This document shows positions 277 to 25,582 of a stretch of 28,836 nt of DNA, in pieces. Source of the stretch: a virus. Under the pieces are notes generated by a model. The model did no database searches. It saw nothing but the letters and a program-made list of their open reading frames with translations, and was not told the origin of the DNA. The DNA lies in the IMG/VR virus record IMGVR_UViG_3300032731_000215, positions 1 to 28,836 of that record; one strand, given 5' to 3'. Position numbers and translations under genes: made by a program. Each line of letters opens with the position of its first letter. Position 1 is the stretch's first letter.

Positions 277-2055
277 ATGGGTTGGTTAAAGAGCGCAGCT
301 AACATAGTAGGACGTAAAGACCCCATTAAGTCTGACGACAAAGGGTCTAGTTTGATTGGTAAACTCGACAGCCTGTACTCTGAAGCCAAGACAGCACAGA
401 AGGATAGGAATATATACTACGACAGCAACGATAAACTATACACAGGCAACCACTGGGACGAGGCAGAGAACAGACCAGACTATAAGTCACGAGTCATTAT
501 CAACATGGTGTTCATGGCGGTAGAGACTATCACCCCTATCATGACAGACCGTGAACCTATCATGATCGTTGAACCTAAGAAGGAAGCACCAGACCCAGAG
601 AAGGCAGACTTACTAGCAGATCAGTCAGAGCATATGCTTCACTATCACTGGGATAGACTTGACATGCAGGTTGTAACCCCAGCCATAGTGAGACACATGC
701 TACTGAACCGAGACGCAATACTGCACTGGTACTGGGACACCTACACCAATGACGTAGGAGTAGAGTTACTTGATCCTAAGAACGTGTACACAGACCCATC
801 AGCTACCAAACCAGACGACGTGGACTATGTTATCAAGGCAGTACCACGCTCTATCAGGCAGGTTAAGCAGACCTACCCTAAGCTAAAGACTGCTGACCTA
901 GAGGACTTAGCAGGTGCATCGGGTGTTGATGATACAGACGGAGACGAAGAGAAGAATAGCCAAGTCCTAGTCAAAGAGTTCTGGGGTTGGGTACAGAACG
1001 GTGAAGACTATGAGATCAAGAAGATAACCTGGATCGGTAACAAGATAGTAGCTAACGAGAGCAATCCTAACTTTAAAAAGGGAGACGAAGAGAAGTATAA
1101 TCATTTCGATAAGGAAGCATTGCCCTTTATATTCATACCGTCATACCAGCATGGTGATGATCTGTACTCCAAGACCAGTGCTATAGAGCAGGCTAAGGAG
1201 TTACAGTACAACATCAACCAACGTAAGGCACAGATCACAGACAACGCTAATGATATTAATAACCCGCAACGTATAGTAGCCGCAGACTCAGGTATAGACC
1301 TAGACTTATGGGACAGCGCACCTGGCACAATCATAGAGGGAGGACCAGACATAAGCAGTAAGAAGGTAAGGATACTAAGCGCAGCAGGTCTACCTAACTT
1401 CGTAAGGGAAGACTTAGAGGACAGTATGAGAGCCTTCGATAACATATTCGGAACACATGATATATCCCGTGGTGTACAGGTAGGTACTAAGTCAGCTACA
1501 GAGAGCCAGTTACTGAAGGAAGCAGACCAAGGCCGCATTGCCCTACTGATAAGGAACTTCAACTACGGTATAGCCCAACTAGGTAACGCATGGCTACACC
1601 TAATGAAGATGAACTACACCGAGACCCACTATGGCAGATACATGAATGAAGATAACGAACGGAAATATATTCAGATGACCCGTGACAAGATACCTGATAG
1701 TGTAGAAGTATCAGTCAAGGTAGGTAGTAATCTCCCTATTGATAGACTAGCTAGAAGGGCAGAGGCGCAAGAGTTGTGGGCTTCACATGCCACCACACCT
1801 AACCGATTAGCTAAGGAACTAGACATGCCCAAATCTGATAACCTAGAGGATGATATAGTAGAGTGGGAGAAGAAGAAGATGGAAGCTATGCAACCACCTA
1901 TGCCAGAAGGACCACCTGAGATGCCACCAGGCGCACCAGGATCACCTGAGGGAGGCGTAGAGGGTGAAGGTGTACCAATCACTGATATGCCAGCAAGTCT
2001 GATAGAGGGAGAGCTAGAAGAGGAATTAGAAATAGACAAACCATTACCAATTTAA
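277..2055 (+). CDS. Portal protein
   Basis: This 592-residue protein follows the terminase and precedes scaffold and capsid genes, the standard place for the dodecameric portal through which DNA enters and leaves the head. Its length fits portals of short-tailed phages. The N-terminal third has the portal-like pattern of a short basic start, then YTGNHWDEAENRP and SRVIINMVFMAVETITPIM. The middle has acidic and aromatic stretches and NINQRKAQITDNAND. The last 60 residues are rich in proline, glycine and glutamate and probably disordered. The ATG is preceded by AGG directly against the start, too close for a good ribosome site. Codon use is rich in ATA, CTA and AGA/AGG, unlike the capsid gene. 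Function is inferred from position and overall pattern. Confidence 0.85.
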   Translation: MGWLKSAANIVGRKDPIKSDDKGSSLIGKLDSLYSEAKTAQKDRNIYYDSNDKLYTGNHWDEAENRPDYKSRVIINMVFMAVETITPIMTDREPIMIVEPKKEAPDPEKADLLADQSEHMLHYHWDRLDMQVVTPAIVRHMLLNRDAILHWYWDTYTNDVGVELLDPKNVYTDPSATKPDDVDYVIKAVPRSIRQVKQTYPKLKTADLEDLAGASGVDDTDGDEEKNSQVLVKEFWGWVQNGEDYEIKKITWIGNKIVANESNPNFKKGDEEKYNHFDKEALPFIFIPSYQHGDDLYSKTSAIEQAKELQYNINQRKAQITDNANDINNPQRIVAADSGIDLDLWDSAPGTIIEGGPDISSKKVRILSAAGLPNFVREDLEDSMRAFDNIFGTHDISRGVQVGTKSATESQLLKEADQGRIALLIRNFNYGIAQLGNAWLHLMKMNYTETHYGRYMNEDNERKYIQMTRDKIPDSVEVSVKVGSNLPIDRLARRAEAQELWASHATTPNRLAKELDMPKSDNLEDDIVEWEKKKMEAMQPPMPEGPPEMPPGAPGSPEGGVEGEGVPITDMPASLIEGELEEELEIDKPLPI

Positions 2056-2064
2056 AATAAACTA

Positions 2065-2391
2065 ATGCCAAAGTACGAAGAAGCAATGGGTGAGGAAGAC
2101 TACCAAGAAGACATGGGTGCAGAGAAAGAAGAACCCAAAGAAGAAATGGACTACGAACAGAAGGACTTAACCCTATGGGCTAAGGATGTACCTGAGCTAG
2201 AAGGTATGGCTGAAGGTGATTCAGTATCTGTAAGTGTAGAGGGTACAATCAAGTCAACTGGTGAGTCAGTAGTCATCAGTGTGGACAGTGCCTCAGTAGA
2301 AGGTGGAACAGAAGAAGAACCAGAGGAAGAGGACGAAGTACAGAAACTTGTTGACGACTCCGAAGACAAAGGTGACAAGCCGTTTGCCTAG
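2065..2391 (+). CDS. Acidic small protein between portal and scaffold
   Basis: This 108-residue, strongly acidic protein has low-complexity Glu/Asp-rich ends and a short central domain (about residues 33-80) predicted to be beta-rich, with DLTLWAKDVPELEGM followed by alternating SVSVSVEG and VVISVDSA strands. The start follows AATAAACTA-ATG, the A-rich leader seen across the window. It sits nine bases after the portal gene, so it is probably co-translated with it. Small proteins at this position can be scaffold-associated, decoration or connector cofactors, but I do not recognise the family. A structured RNA element and a terminator follow it, so it is the last gene of the terminase-portal transcription unit. 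Confidence 0.75.
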   Translation: MPKYEEAMGEEDYQEDMGAEKEEPKEEMDYEQKDLTLWAKDVPELEGMAEGDSVSVSVEGTIKSTGESVVISVDSASVEGGTEEEPEEEDEVQKLVDDSEDKGDKPFA

Positions 2392-2411
2392 TACCTACTA
2401 ATTGAATTAAA

Positions 2412-2486
2412 AGTGGTGAGCCCTTGAGGTTTCTATCAAGGGGGTGTTGGGTTACATTTGTTCCAACATCTAGGTTTATCACCACT
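2412..2486 (+). promoter_or_regulatory. Structured RNA element 1: three-way junction
   Basis: A perfect 8-bp outer helix AGTGGTGA (2412-2419) with TCACCACT (2479-2486) encloses two hairpins: CCCTTGA (2421-2427) with TCAAGGG (2436-2442), and GGTGTTGG (2443-2450) with CCAACATC (2463-2470, one G-U pair). The two inner stems abut with no spacer, so they could stack coaxially. A competing pairing, AAGGGGGT (2438-2445) with ACCCCCTT (2493-2500), would break both inner stems and occupy sequence next to the terminator at 2504. There is no long reading frame here. It may be a cis-acting switch, an RNA processing site or a separate small RNA; the pairings are seen, the role is not known. Confidence 0.6.
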
Positions 2487-2503
2487 CCTAGAACCCCCTT
2501 AAT

Positions 2504-2528
2504 AGAGGCCTTAAACGGTCTCTTTTTT
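2504..2528 (+). terminator. Rho-independent terminator after portal unit
   Basis: AGAGGCC (2504-2510) pairs with GGTCTCT (2517-2523) with one G-U pair, closing a 6-base loop, and a run of T follows to 2528. Flanking CTTAATA (2498-2504) and TATTAAG (2528-2534) are also complementary and could extend the stem around the T run. It lies between the portal unit and the scaffold-capsid genes, where partial termination would separate their expression levels. No clear promoter could be picked out between it and the scaffold start at 2591. Confidence 0.75.
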
Positions 2529-2590
2529 ATTAAGAATAACTATGTGCGGACTCGAAAGAATAACCAAGCATAGACTCTAACTGAAACAAC

Positions 2591-3304: not shown

Positions 3305-4315
3305 ATGGCATCATCACTAACTTACAGTGAAATCCAGTCCATAACGAGGAAAGAATTTATTCCAGAAGTAGTTGATAACATTCTGGATTCTGACGCAGTC
3401 TTTCAACGTGCTGCTGGTAAGACGAAGAAAATGAGCGGAGAACGAATCATGGTTCCCGTTAAGTATGATGTTAACTCTGCTACCACTGCCTATTCAGGTA
3501 TGGATACATTGTCCACTAACCATGTAGACACTGTTTCTGCTGCTGAGTTTAATATCAAACAGAATCAAATCACAGTTGTACTTAGCAACTTCGACCGAGC
3601 TAAGAACAAAGGCAAAAACGCTGTGATTGATTACGTCCAACAGAAGACCGAAGAAGCTACTACCGATCTTAAAAAATCTCTCATCGAGCAGTTTTATTCA
3701 GACGGTACTGGCACTGACAGTAAAGAACTAACTGGTATCCAAGCTTACATTGATGACTCAAGTAACGTTAATGTCTACGGTAGTATTAACCGAACAGATG
3801 ATACATTCTGGAAAGCTGGTTACACAGCTAGTATTGGATCGTTACAGTTATCAGATATGGCAGCTGCATACATTGACTGTACTTCTGCCACCGATCAACC
3901 AACAATCATCGTAACCACTGAGACTATCTTTAATGCTCTTGAAGCATTGCAGACAGCTAACCAGCGGTACTCATCATCTATGGACGGCTATCACAAGCTG
4001 ACCAAAGAAGGTGTTGCTAAGGGTTCCGATGGGCAAGTAGCCGACATGGGATTTAAGGCATTGATGTACAAAGGTGTTCCAGTTGTAGCAAGTGAATACT
4101 GTCCTGCTACTAAGATGTTCTTCATTAACGAGGAATATTTGCAGATGTATTGCATGGATCACCCAGAATTCTCAACTGATAAGATGGGATTTGCAATGAG
4201 TGATTACATAACTCCTGTCGATCAGGATGGCGTTCTATTCCGAATCTACTACTACGCTAATATGGTTGGTTCACAGCCTCGACGAAACCACCAGTTAACG
4301 GGAGTTACAGCCTGA
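3305..4315 (+). CDS. Major capsid protein
   Basis: This 336-residue protein is nine bases downstream of the scaffold gene. It has the look of an HK97-fold coat protein: an N-terminal helix with TRKEFIPEVVDNILDSDAVFQ, then GERIMVPVKYD, a run resembling QNQITVVLSNFDRAKNKGKNA, a long helix YVQQKTEEATTDLKKSLIEQF, and GIQAYIDDSSNVNVYGSINR, which matches the loop pattern GGI..R...W in many coat proteins. Codon use differs from the portal: mostly CGN arginine codons and ATC/ATT isoleucine, fitting high expression. It forms the icosahedral shell. The structured RNA at 4330-4416 follows and may set how much of the transcript continues. Confidence 0.88.
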   Translation: MASSLTYSEIQSITRKEFIPEVVDNILDSDAVFQRAAGKTKKMSGERIMVPVKYDVNSATTAYSGMDTLSTNHVDTVSAAEFNIKQNQITVVLSNFDRAKNKGKNAVIDYVQQKTEEATTDLKKSLIEQFYSDGTGTDSKELTGIQAYIDDSSNVNVYGSINRTDDTFWKAGYTASIGSLQLSDMAAAYIDCTSATDQPTIIVTTETIFNALEALQTANQRYSSSMDGYHKLTKEGVAKGSDGQVADMGFKALMYKGVPVVASEYCPATKMFFINEEYLQMYCMDHPEFSTDKMGFAMSDYITPVDQDGVLFRIYYYANMVGSQPRRNHQLTGVTA

Positions 4316-4429: not shown

Positions 4430-6970
4430 ATGGCTTTAAAAAACATGAAGAACTACTTCGGGGCGGTCAATGAGAACCAAGGGGTTCTGAAGACTGACCA
4501 ACTCGAATTAGTAGAACAAGCCGCTGCACCTACTACAAACTTATCTAATGGGAGAATGTATCTTAATTCTTCAGATAACAATTTGTATGTGTATGCTAAC
4601 AGTACATGGGTAGACCTCACTGATACTGGTAGCTCAGGAACAGCGACGGGTGATCTCGATGGAGTTTATAGTAATGGTGGTACTGTTACTTTAGACGAAG
4701 GCCCGATCACTTTAAACGACGCTACTGCTGGCGCACTAAACTCCTTAGTGTTAACCAAGAGTGGCGCAGGTACAGGCAACATGCTTGACATGGGTGTCTC
4801 GACTACCTTTACAGGAAACGCTATCGACATTGACCTAGACGCTGGTGTCGGTGCCAAGGCTATCTACATTGATAGTGGTGGCGGAACACGAACTGCTGTT
4901 CCATTTGACATTAAACATGACGGTGACGGTAACGTCGCTGCTATGAATATAACCGCTACTAACACTGGTTCAGGATCTGTGTTTAGCGTAACTATGAATG
5001 GCGATGGTTCAGGTGGTGGCGTATTCAACGTGGATATGAACGCTGCTGTAGGAGCAGAAGCTGCCTACATTGACGCAGGTGGTGGTACTCGTACTGCTAA
5101 CTTGATTGAGATTAAAAATGATGGAGACGGAAACGTAGACGCTTTGTCTATCGTTGACTCCAACACTGGATCAGGAGATGTTATTGATGTCAACATGGAT
5201 GGTAATGGTAGTGGATCGTTCATGAATGTTGATATGAATGCTGCTGTCGGTGAAGAATTTATAATTCTTGACACTGGTGCTGGAGCGAGAACTGTTAATA
5301 TGTTCGAGATTATAAATGCAGGTAGTGGAAACGTTGACCTATTCTCTATTGTGTCTTCTAACACTGGTACTGGTGCGATACTCGACCTAAACATGGACGG
5401 TATTGATACTGGTGAAGTGTTGAACGTAGATATGAATGCAGCTGTAGGAGCTGAGTTCTTACTGTTAGACGCAGGCAACGCTATTAGAACGGCAAACCTA
5501 ATCGAAGTCACCAATGACGGTTCTGGTAATGTTGCACTCCTAAGTGTCACGGATACCAACACTGGTTCAGGTTCACTAATAGACCTTAGTATGGACGGCA
5601 ATGGTGCTGGTTCAACTATATCTTGCGATATGAACACAGCCGTAGGTGAAGAGTTCCTATACATAGACGCTGGTGGTGGAACTAGAACGGTAGACTTGGT
5701 CGATGTTAAATTCGACGGTGATGGTAATGTTGGTGTCTTAGGTGTCACTTGCACTAACACTGGTTCAGGAGCCTTAATCGACCTTGATATAAGTGGTATC
5801 CATACAGGAAATGCTATTGATGTTACTTACTCTGCAGCAGCCTCTACGGGTGATGCGGTTGCCTTAACAATGGCGAACAATGTAAGTGGTTCAGCCCTGG
5901 CAATCTCTGGCGCTGGTGCTAGAACAGATGACCTCATCAAGATTGATGACTCATCTACTGGAGCTGGTGCTAGAAGTATCTTTGACATCAATGTCACTGG
6001 TACTGGTACATTCCCTGTACTAGACATTAGCCTTGCTAATGCTTCTGTAAACGCTACAGCGATTAAGCTAACAGAAGGAACTGGAACAGCTACTGTACCT
6101 CTGATCGACATTAACTCGGCAGGTACAGGTGCTCAGGCCACGATTGATATCGACTACACTGGTATCTTTACTGGTAACTGCTTAGACATTACCTACTCGA
6201 CAGCTGCTGCTACGGGTAATGCTATCGACATTAACATGGGTAACACGAGTTCAAATGTAGCTGGTATGGGTTTGACCATCACCTCTGCTGGAACTGGTGT
6301 AGCCAATGAAGGTAGCGCTATCAACGTAGACCATGCTGGTAACTTAGCTGCTAATGCTGACTGTGTAAGGCTTGACCACACAGGAACACTTAGCTCAACC
6401 TCTAACGTTTTGATGGTTGAAGCTACTGGAGCTAGTACGGCTGGTGCTTACGCTGTAAACATTAACGCTACAGGTAACAACACCGAAGGCTTGAAGGTTG
6501 ATGCTGGTAAGGTTGTGTTAGATGAGACGTTAGAAGTAGGTGGAGCAGCAACCATAACTGGAGCTCTTACCCAAACTGGGATTGCTACCCTCTCAACAGG
6601 TCTAACTCAGACCGCTGTTGCAAAGGTTCCATCTGTCGATGGATCTGGAGACGGAACGATAGCCGCTGGAACGTCGATGATACAACCAACTTCTGCTGGT
6701 GCTAATAACTGGTTCACATTGCCAGTGCCAGTAGCTGGACACATAATCAATATCCTTCCTGATGTTGGTGCTACGGGGTATGAGATTAGGGCACAAGACC
6801 CTGCTAACCAGTACATCAATAATGTTACTGGAGCTAATGTTGAATTGGCTGTAGGAACAACGGACGCAATTAGATTGACTTGTGTTGTTGGTGGAGCAAC
6901 TGGTAGATGGATAGCTGAGAAGCTTAGCACCGTAGGTGCATCAACATCTGCTGGAACACCAGGAGCTTAG
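4430..6970 (+). CDS. Repeat-rich fibre or head-appendage protein
   Basis: This 846-residue protein starts with a short domain (1-70) containing GRMYLNSSDNNLYVYANSTW, a segment common at the N-terminus of phage fibre-type proteins. About residues 134-460 are tandem 66-residue repeats with the core VDMNAAVGAEF, then GGGTRTxNLIEI, then DGDGNVxxLS, then TNTGSGxxID and MDGNGSG. Shorter degenerate repeats (GNAIDVTYSAAAS, GNCLDITYSTAAA) follow to about 640. The C-terminal domain, about 715-846, contains WFTLPVPVAGHIINILPDVGATGYEIRA and is a separate beta fold. The regular Gly/Asp/Asn strands suggest a beta-helix-like stalk. It is probably an extended receptor-binding or head-fibre protein; its position next to the capsid gene favours the head. 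No enzymatic motif is seen. Confidence 0.75.
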   Translation: MALKNMKNYFGAVNENQGVLKTDQLELVEQAAAPTTNLSNGRMYLNSSDNNLYVYANSTWVDLTDTGSSGTATGDLDGVYSNGGTVTLDEGPITLNDATAGALNSLVLTKSGAGTGNMLDMGVSTTFTGNAIDIDLDAGVGAKAIYIDSGGGTRTAVPFDIKHDGDGNVAAMNITATNTGSGSVFSVTMNGDGSGGGVFNVDMNAAVGAEAAYIDAGGGTRTANLIEIKNDGDGNVDALSIVDSNTGSGDVIDVNMDGNGSGSFMNVDMNAAVGEEFIILDTGAGARTVNMFEIINAGSGNVDLFSIVSSNTGTGAILDLNMDGIDTGEVLNVDMNAAVGAEFLLLDAGNAIRTANLIEVTNDGSGNVALLSVTDTNTGSGSLIDLSMDGNGAGSTISCDMNTAVGEEFLYIDAGGGTRTVDLVDVKFDGDGNVGVLGVTCTNTGSGALIDLDISGIHTGNAIDVTYSAAASTGDAVALTMANNVSGSALAISGAGARTDDLIKIDDSSTGAGARSIFDINVTGTGTFPVLDISLANASVNATAIKLTEGTGTATVPLIDINSAGTGAQATIDIDYTGIFTGNCLDITYSTAAATGNAIDINMGNTSSNVAGMGLTITSAGTGVANEGSAINVDHAGNLAANADCVRLDHTGTLSSTSNVLMVEATGASTAGAYAVNINATGNNTEGLKVDAGKVVLDETLEVGGAATITGALTQTGIATLSTGLTQTAVAKVPSVDGSGDGTIAAGTSMIQPTSAGANNWFTLPVPVAGHIINILPDVGATGYEIRAQDPANQYINNVTGANVELAVGTTDAIRLTCVVGGATGRWIAEKLSTVGASTSAGTPGA
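4829..5820 (+). repeat. Five tandem ~198-bp (66-residue) coding repeats
   Basis: The VDMNAAVG-like segment recurs at 5030, 5228, 5426 and 5624, exactly 198 bases apart, with a first, more divergent copy 201 bases earlier near 4829. The DNA copies differ by many synonymous changes although the protein repeat is well kept, so the array is old or under protein-level selection rather than a recent duplication. Confidence 0.85.
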
Positions 6971-7254: not shown

Positions 7255-7258
7255 TCTT

Positions 7259-7348
7259 CTCACTCAGCTCCTACTGGGGGCTGAGATGAGTAGATTAGGT
7301 CGGCCTACTCAATCTCAATAGTCTTAAATGACGAAGGGTCACTTGAGT
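7259..7348 (+). promoter_or_regulatory. Structured intergenic RNA element 3
   Basis: CTCACTCAGCTCC (7259-7271) pairs with GGGGCTGAGATGAG (7277-7290) in a 13-bp stem with one bulged A and loop TACTG. Next, GAGTAG (7288-7293) can pair with CTACTC (7305-7310), or AGATTAGG with CCTACTCAATCT, so the middle has mutually exclusive folds. A third stem, CTTAAATGAC (7323-7332) with GTCACTTGAG (7338-7347), has one mismatch and one G-U. ACTCAA (7307-7312) with TTGAGT (7343-7348) is an alternative. There is no T run, so this is not an ordinary terminator. Confidence 0.5.
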
Positions 7349-7371
7349 AACTAATAAACTAACAAACAATT

Positions 7372-7863
7372 ATGTCGATGAATCATTTATGGGAAACTAA
7401 GCTAACAGCCAACGATAGCACGGCTCAGGAACAGCTTGGTATTCTACGAACGGAATTGGATAGCAGCACCAATAGGTTTAAAACCTACAAGTATGTCGTT
7501 GCTGCTGCTGATACTACTGTCGCTGACGGTACTGCTCTATGTTATACAGACTTGTATGGCACTACAGCTAGCCTAGATATTAGTGATGGTGCTATCAACC
7601 AGGTATGTGGTGTAGGTGTTGGTGTTATCACTGCTTCCTACTATGGTTGGGTACAAACTTGGGGTTATCACGATGCTGTCTTAACTGACGGTGGCGATGA
7701 CATTGCTGATGGAGACTCGGTGATCCTTCACGCTTCAAGCAATGGTGTATGTAATAGCACTGCTAGCGGAACTGCTGCTGTATCTTTACCAATAGGTATT
7801 GCAGTAGACGCTGACATTGATGGTAGTAACACTGTTGAAGTTTTTATCCGAATTGAAAAGTAA
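7372..7863 (+). CDS. Putative head decoration or structural protein
   Basis: This 163-residue protein is small, neutral and beta-rich. From residue 40 it runs through VVAAADTTVADGTALCY, then CGVGVGVITASYYGWVQTWGYH and a C-terminal SLPIGIAVDADIDGSNTVEVFIRIEK. The order of a variable value, an YGWVQTWG turn, a GDSVIL strand and an IGIAV close is common in small phage structural proteins encoded near the capsid gene. I read it as a decoration or minor capsid protein, but have no decisive motif. The start has the long leader AACTAATAAACTAACAAACA before ATG, without Shine-Dalgarno. It stands alone between two structured gaps, which may allow separate dosing. Confidence 0.7.
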   Translation: MSMNHLWETKLTANDSTAQEQLGILRTELDSSTNRFKTYKYVVAAADTTVADGTALCYTDLYGTTASLDISDGAINQVCGVGVGVITASYYGWVQTWGYHDAVLTDGGDDIADGDSVILHASSNGVCNSTASGTAAVSLPIGIAVDADIDGSNTVEVFIRIEK

Positions 7864-7870
7864 TTCCAAC

Positions 7871-7897
7871 TAGGCTTCCCGATCTTCGGGGGGCTTA
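7871..7897 (+). promoter_or_regulatory. Stable 12-bp intergenic hairpin
   Basis: TAGGCTTCCCGA (7871-7882) pairs with TCGGGGGGCTTA (7886-7897) around a 3-base loop TCT, with three G-U pairs. No T run follows, so it may be an mRNA-stabilising or processing hairpin rather than a terminator. Confidence 0.5.
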
Positions 7898-7922
7898 TGA
7901 TGTAATTAACTAATACAAAAGT

Positions 7923-9344: not shown

Positions 9345-9368
9345 TGTATCTGTTACATCTGGTATACT
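9341..9368 (+). promoter_or_regulatory. Possible promoter and inverted repeat before HNH gene
   Basis: TTGATG (9341-9346) and TATACT (9363-9368) are separated by 16 bases and could be -35 and -10 boxes; the first overlaps the stop codon of the preceding gene. The spacer contains a perfect inverted repeat, GATGTA (9343-9348) and TACATC (9354-9359), which could be a small hairpin or an operator. This would let the inserted nuclease gene be expressed apart from the structural operon. Confidence 0.4.
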
Positions 9369-9397
9369 TGAGGTAGTTAGAAATTAATTGAAAAATT

Positions 9398-14101: not shown

Positions 14102-14107
14102 AAGTGT

Positions 14108-14130
14108 GGCGTGTTTATCACGCCTCTTTT
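14108..14130 (+). terminator. Rho-independent terminator before adaptor gene
   Basis: GGCGTG (14108-14113) pairs perfectly with CACGCC (14119-14124) around TTTAT and is followed by TCTTTT. It ends the lectin/decoration block and precedes the head-tail connector genes. Confidence 0.8.
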
Positions 14131-14156
14131 ACAGAGTGCATACTGTGCATTCTGTA
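14130..14156 (+). promoter_or_regulatory. Second hairpin between terminator and adaptor start
   Basis: TACAGAGTGCA (14130-14140) pairs with TGCATTCTGTA (14146-14156) with one G-U pair and loop TACTG, the same five loop bases as the hairpin at 7259-7290. It sits 16 bases before the ATG of the adaptor gene and overlaps the T run of the terminator by one base, so it might influence termination or translation. Confidence 0.5.
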
Positions 14157-14172
14157 GAGGATAACTAAACAT

Positions 14173-24487: not shown

Positions 24488-24618
24488 GAGCATTGCTAAT
24501 GTTTCTATTCATAGTAGGCGGAAGTCTGCTAGGTGCTTATGTTGCTGTCGAAGTCAAGAATAACTGGGGAGCTATCATTAAGTTCATAAAAAAACTATGG
24601 AAAAAAAAGATCCGTTAA
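24484..24618 (+). CDS. Small one-helix membrane protein of the lysis cassette
   Basis: This 44-residue open frame starts at the ATG overlapping the endolysin stop (ATGA). It encodes MRALLMFLFIVGGSLLGAYV, a single membrane segment, followed by a basic tail ending KKLWKKKIR. Its position, coupling and cationic C-terminus fit a small holin-like or spanin-like accessory, but the family is not recognised. It overlaps the next gene by 22 bases if that gene uses 24597, or not at all if it starts at 24621. Confidence 0.65.
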   Translation: MRALLMFLFIVGGSLLGAYVAVEVKNNWGAIIKFIKKLWKKKIR

Positions 24619-25416: not shown

Positions 25417-25470
25417 TTGGCAGGAAGATGGTCGGTTCATAGCCTATTAATCTAACCACCGACGGGTATG

Positions 25471-25495
25471 CAGGGCTGTAGTTAGCCCTGTTTTT
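25471..25495 (+). terminator. Rho-independent terminator ending the late block
   Basis: CAGGGCT (25471-25477) pairs perfectly with AGCCCTG (25484-25490) around GTAGTT, followed by TTTTT. It ends the long structural and lysis transcript after the nuclease gene. Confidence 0.85.
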
Positions 25496-25525
25496 AGTAC
25501 CTGTTGATAAGTCTAGTAAATTGTA

Positions 25526-25554
25526 TAGACAGGTTGTGATACATAGTGTACTAT
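25526..25554 (+). promoter_or_regulatory. Sigma70-type promoter for the small-gene block
   Basis: TAGACA (25526-25531; five of six match TTGACA) is separated by 17 bases from TACTAT (25549-25554; four of six match TATAAT). It lies between a terminator and the first gene of a new, tightly overlapping block, so it is a convincing early or middle promoter. The gap 25417-25582 contains no other gene. Confidence 0.6.
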
Positions 25555-25582
25555 GAAGCCATGATAGAAATTAACAAAACAC

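Follow-up and report, generated by a model that had tools for sequence, protein, structure and literature searches.

How does transcription pass from the portal to the capsid genes in a phage whose intervening gap encodes an RNA with competing folds? The question is raised by the IMG/VR virus record IMGVR_UViG_3300032731_000215, analysed over its whole length (positions 1 to 28,836; this 28,836-base stretch is called the window), the start of which falls within a terminase large subunit gene (PHROG phrog_38). The features of the locus are collected in Table 1. The terminase/portal and scaffold/capsid context proposed in an initial annotation of this DNA is right: the portal is SU10/P22-like and is followed by a gene for a 108-aa protein, a gene in scaffold position and the major capsid gene. 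Searches of PHROG and Pfam gave no match for the 108-aa protein and no family match for the 234-aa scaffold-position protein, and a tRNA scan of the window found none. Further downstream, an 846-aa protein (4430-6970) carries degenerate repeats of ~50 residues (VDMNAAVG.EA.YIDAGGGTRT..., NTGSG) and has no PHROG or Pfam family match above cut-off.

Table 1. Genes and RNA elements of the portal-to-capsid region, in window positions
Feature	Position	Strand	Sequence, basis or remarks
Portal gene, SU10/P22 type	277-2055		PHROG/Pfam matches
Gene for 108-aa acidic protein	2065-2391	+	ORF list; portal-scaffold accessory position, 5' of the RNA
Intergenic gap holding the RNA element	2392-2590		199 nt
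P1, outer helix	2412-2419/2479-2486	+	AGUGGUGA/UCACCACU, 8 bp
P2	2421-2427/2436-2442	+	CCCUUGA/UCAAGGG
P3	2443-2450/2463-2470	+	GGUGUUGG/CCAACAUC, one G-U
Early fold, three-way junction P1+P2+P3	2412-2486	+	predicted minimum-energy fold of transcripts ending at ~2485 to 2505
8-bp alternative pairing of the initial annotation	2438-2445/2493-2500	+	AAGGGGGU/ACCCCCUU
Candidate antiterminator	2424-2514	+	2424-2436/2502-2514 plus 2438-2445/2493-2500, 21 pairs
P4, hairpin of the antiterminator fold	2469-2474/2487-2492	+	inverted-repeat search, folding
Predicted intrinsic terminator	2504-2528	+	AGAGGCC-UUAAAC-GGUCUCU then UUUUU
Possible 12-codon leader ORF	2542-2580	+	MCGLERITKHRL; between terminator and scaffold start; sequence reading alone
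Scaffold-position gene, 234 aa	2591-3295	+	first gene 3' of the RNA; placed directly before the capsid gene
Major capsid protein	3305-4315	+	phrog_9953, E 5e-56; Pfam SU10_MCP, E 2.5e-6

Inverted-repeat search and folding recovered, position for position, every helix that had been named in the initial annotation, and the terminator described there is present as well, with its stem at 2504-2510/2517-2523 followed by a U-tract. The alternative pairing, which had been put at 8 bp, also exists but is the core of a longer helix paired at 21 of 22 positions (2424-2445/2493-2514). The underlying 22-position inverted repeat, TTGAGGTTTCTATCAAGGGGGT / ACCCCCTTAATAGAGGCCTTAA, found by the inverted-repeat search, gives as + strand RNA 18 Watson-Crick pairs, 3 G-U pairs and a single C/A mismatch (2437/2501). 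Since its 3' arm includes 2504-2510, that is the 5' arm of the terminator, the long helix has the form of a textbook-style antiterminator in competition with both terminator and junction, so that the region holds three rival elements, junction, antiterminator and terminator. The proposal that the alternative fold destroys both inner hairpins holds for P2, which is lost together with P1, but not for P3, which is kept in a shifted register (2446-2451/2462-2467); with the new hairpin P4, this makes the antiterminator fold itself a three-way junction. For the region, predicted folding energy is lowest in the antiterminator fold, not in the junction fold that had been described. In the early fold, 2471-2474 could pair with 2487-2490 in a possible pseudoknot adjoining P1.

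Whether the gap is more structured than shuffled sequence had been raised as a check on the proposal; at -57.9 kcal/mol (z about -4.0) the gap 2392-2590 exceeds all shuffles, and 2401-2520 ranks 5 among 958 folding windows by z. The antiterminator helix is strongly non-random: its z is -5.1, with none of 1000 shuffles equal to it, in shuffles of the sequence 5' of a fixed terminator, and -4.0 (3 of 2000) when the upstream region is fixed and only the linker 2487-2503 is shuffled. The portion facing 2502-2512, taken alone, reaches only z -2.2 (27 of 1000 shuffles). As a control, 175 terminator-like sites of the window and of the related phage contigs then collected were scored for upstream complementarity, and among them the site at 2504 came first, with a z of -6.3 (runner-up -3.1). 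The early junction departs from chance only modestly (p about 0.016-0.03): shuffling the region 5' of the terminator, with the terminator fixed, gives z -2.6 (16 of 1000), and a dinucleotide shuffle that leaves the arm 2424-2445 intact gives z -2.1 (65 of 2000). Perfect 8-bp helices of the P1 kind turn up in 5.7% of shuffles. Thus, on the shuffle tests and the 175-site control, the antiterminator is the well-supported element and the junction the weaker one.

Minimum-energy folds of the growing transcript yield P2, next P3 and next P1, reaching -32.0 kcal/mol by 2490; the junction is the minimum-energy fold until about nucleotide 2505 and the antiterminator from 2510 through 2540. At 2540 the antiterminator stands at -47.6 kcal/mol vs. 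-44.7 for the junction plus extended terminator, about 3 kcal/mol apart, and its computed share at equilibrium is 99.9%. On the best nested path found from junction to antiterminator the barrier height is about 14.4 kcal/mol (2500) or 16.7 kcal/mol (2510), values that are upper bounds because the P2 loop (2428-2435), complementary to 2503-2510, could seed a pseudoknotted exchange absent from such models. Given the small energy gap and a barrier of about 14-17 kcal/mol, the outcome could therefore depend on kinetics. A high barrier out of the junction would favour termination; the early fold may or may not outlast synthesis of the terminator, and control could act at that point.

The competing pairings are present and the long one, far beyond chance, takes in the terminator arm. 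Our preferred reading, held tentatively and at somewhat under an even chance, is that an attenuator-like, conditional terminator separates the portal/108-aa genes from scaffold and capsid. While the gap is being transcribed, P2 would form first, followed by P3 and P1. After 2493-2514 has emerged, the 21-bp antiterminator could displace P1 and P2 and sequester the 5' arm of the terminator, so that transcription continues into scaffold and capsid; should the early fold last to about 2523, the terminator would form and transcription would stop. Termination would take place at the 2504-2528 site and the balance would presumably shift during infection, for which polymerase speed or pausing, or a protein or ligand holding the early fold, are candidates. 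It is a good deal less probable that capsid production is timed or scaled in this way, with a kinetically trapped junction permitting termination as long as no factor of phage or host origin tips the balance to the 21-bp antiterminator. Compared with what marks an attenuator, a terminator hairpin with a U-tract lies upstream of a gene (2504-2528), a helix including the terminator 5' arm exceeds chance (2424-2445/2493-2514), and the junction, a candidate for the earlier fold that would compete for the antiterminator arm, has a p of only 0.016-0.03. The initial annotation had recognised the layout of a riboswitch or attenuator. The attenuator-like order of early fold, antiterminator and terminator is supported, and now more strongly, as the arm of the terminator is itself taken up by the alternative helix; a ligand-binding riboswitch is not supported, since neither an Rfam family nor a homologue was found.

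Scanned against Rfam, the window yielded no family above the gathering threshold; with the cut-off relaxed to E<=10, the sole matches were to microRNA and snoRNA models, all sub-threshold and none credible. Near-identical DNA was sought in phage records and none was found; a distant DNA search with the gap returned only chance matches of 24-28 nt from phages and none from plasmids. Single-protein scans with the capsid and with the portal gave no relatives, and a terminase-tail search gave 30 loci, mostly distant, in the best four of which the head module differs. By blastn no RNA homologue was detected in the collected related loci, an absence of close relatives that is not evidence of rarity. 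Scans of viral contigs with P2 and P2-P3 patterns pointed to an AT-rich phage terminator (L252) and a GC-rich contig (L253), both judged to be chance as they lack other similarity. These results bear on a set of readings which we regard, even jointly, as very improbable: a ligand-sensing riboswitch, a packaging RNA like the pRNA of phi29, an inserted mobile hairpin, or chance. In favour of this set, the three-way junction with its possible pseudoknot (2471-2474 with 2487-2490) is aptamer-like, though only in general form, and many relatives have shorter scaffold gaps. Against them stand the lack of an Rfam match at the gathering threshold, the lack of a second copy in the window record, the collected contigs, or the phage or plasmid records, and a structure that exceeds shuffles. 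The link to the phi29 packaging RNA, offered earlier as speculation, found nothing beyond a generic three-way junction; no Rfam match was obtained, and portal and capsid are SU10/P22-like.

Capsid relatives were gathered with a hand-made capsid pattern and alignments, at 20-43% identity (genome contigs gave only capsids at 26-30%), and none of those up to 43% carries a similar RNA. Inspection of 132 distinct pre-scaffold regions from these relatives indicates that portal, small gene, scaffold and capsid is the common order, so that a small gene between portal and scaffold is itself common, and that the pre-scaffold gap is often short. Terminator-like sites near the scaffold start occur in L241, L075 and L171/L172, and by eye in L178. 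None of the relatives having a pre-scaffold terminator carries a comparable antiterminator arm, which counts against the conditional-terminator reading, as do the absence of an RNA homologue from the collections searched, the modest departure of the early junction from chance and the z of only -2.2 for the portion of the helix facing 2502-2512. The terminator-like sites themselves speak for a conditional terminator and equally for a rival, in which the terminator is a plain one and the structure belongs to the 3' end of the transcript or to a small RNA, a reading that we consider possible and less probable than a conditional terminator. According to it, the portal/108-aa transcripts, or a separate RNA of ~117 nt, would terminate at 2528 with their 3' end shielded by the folded RNA; the long helix would be what the released RNA adopts at rest, and a different promoter would serve scaffold and capsid. 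The terminator is good and the fold very stable, and a separate transcription unit would fit the need for capsid copies, as capsid is required in many more copies than portal. Yet no promoter-like site was found on the + strand of 2380-2590, where the lone Bacteroidota-type TAnnTTTG sits within the RNA itself (2453-2460), and the window as a whole has 32 such matches where 22 are expected, a mild excess. Moreover, an upstream arm that destroys the terminator would be superfluous for a plain terminator. Apart from the RNA, a 163-aa protein (7372-7863) is 52-62% conserved in a few viral contigs (L237-L240), with a tandem duplicate in L239 and L240, and its conservation far exceeds that of the capsid.

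Other gaps of the phage are structured too. The gap 7255-7371 has z -3.8 and an alternative fold of z -2.9, in which GAGATGAGTAG pairs with the preceding arm or with the following CTACTCAATCTC; the gap 7864-7922 has z -3.0 vs. shuffles; the gap 14102-14172, the strongest tested (z -7.0), holds two abutting hairpins, one of ~17 bp, directly 5' of a tail-protein gene; and the gap 25417-25560 (z -3.8) holds a terminator-like hairpin, CAGGGCTGTAGTTAGCCCTGTTTTT, at 25471. In the relative L242, the post-capsid gap (6730-6970) contains a long-stem terminator-like structure (GGGGGCGAGA...TTGCCCCCTTTTT; z -4.3) whose arms have local partners too. As these other gaps of the phage have equally strong hairpins, mostly without terminators, strong structure need not mean switching. 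The element 2392-2590 may instead, though we hold this to be unlikely, act in mRNA processing or stabilisation. Its 21-bp helix would then be a double-stranded cleavage site of RNase III type or a stability hairpin between genes in a long late transcript, and the element one of several intercistronic structures in the phage, as the strong hairpins of the four gaps just listed would suggest. This leaves unexplained a well-formed terminator with a U-tract whose arm belongs to the helix; the gaps 9345-9397 and 24488-24596 are unstructured, hence there is no rule for every gap.

Control at the level of translation was also considered. Of the 31 gene starts in the window, only 4 have a Shine-Dalgarno-like site; the sequence 5' of gene starts is A-rich at -4 to -6 and at -10/-11, and AACTAA lies within 30 nt of 9 starts. 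Initiation in Bacteroidota follows a similar pattern, with few Shine-Dalgarno sites and an A-rich upstream region (PMC6847099). The gene starts of the window thus resemble those of Bacteroidota, which is a hint at the host only. With Bacteroidota-like initiation and Shine-Dalgarno sites nearly absent, control by covering such a site is therefore unlikely, and translation control by a hidden ribosome site was rejected, the structure stopping about 60 nt 5' of the scaffold start in a phage where Shine-Dalgarno sites are rare.

If the conditional-terminator reading is true, RNA folding would govern the step from portal to capsid expression, a role that would then fall neither to an antiterminator protein nor to a new promoter, and would make this locus a compact, directly testable case; if it is not, the element would be an ordinary terminator or an intercistronic hairpin. 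Among known systems, the RNase III processing sites of phage T7 are long imperfect RNA helices in intergenic gaps, a description that also suits the present helix, which differs from them by its built-in terminator. The packaging RNA of phi29 includes a three-way junction, and the present RNA likewise has such a junction and a portal gene in its neighbourhood; unlike the phi29 RNA, it belongs to an SU10/P22-like phage, has no Rfam match and ends in a terminator within an operon. Riboswitches with terminator expression platforms, such as the crcB and pfl motifs, provide a further comparison (PMC2864571). They share with our element a structured domain followed, or overlapped, by a terminator, whereas the RNA described here has no Rfam match and the genes downstream are virion genes. 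Known attenuators are found mostly in the leaders of metabolic or regulatory operons, their input being a ribosome, a ligand or a protein. Those of the terminator/antiterminator type rely on mutually exclusive stem-loops (PMC3369936). The likeness extends to the arrangement in which an upstream arm can pair with the terminator 5' arm and so exclude the terminator, and in which an earlier fold, here the candidate junction, would compete for the antiterminator arm; in contrast to them, the candidate, known from its sequence only, sits inside a phage head-gene operon. The general kind of element is already known, and it is this location within the head operon that is noteworthy.
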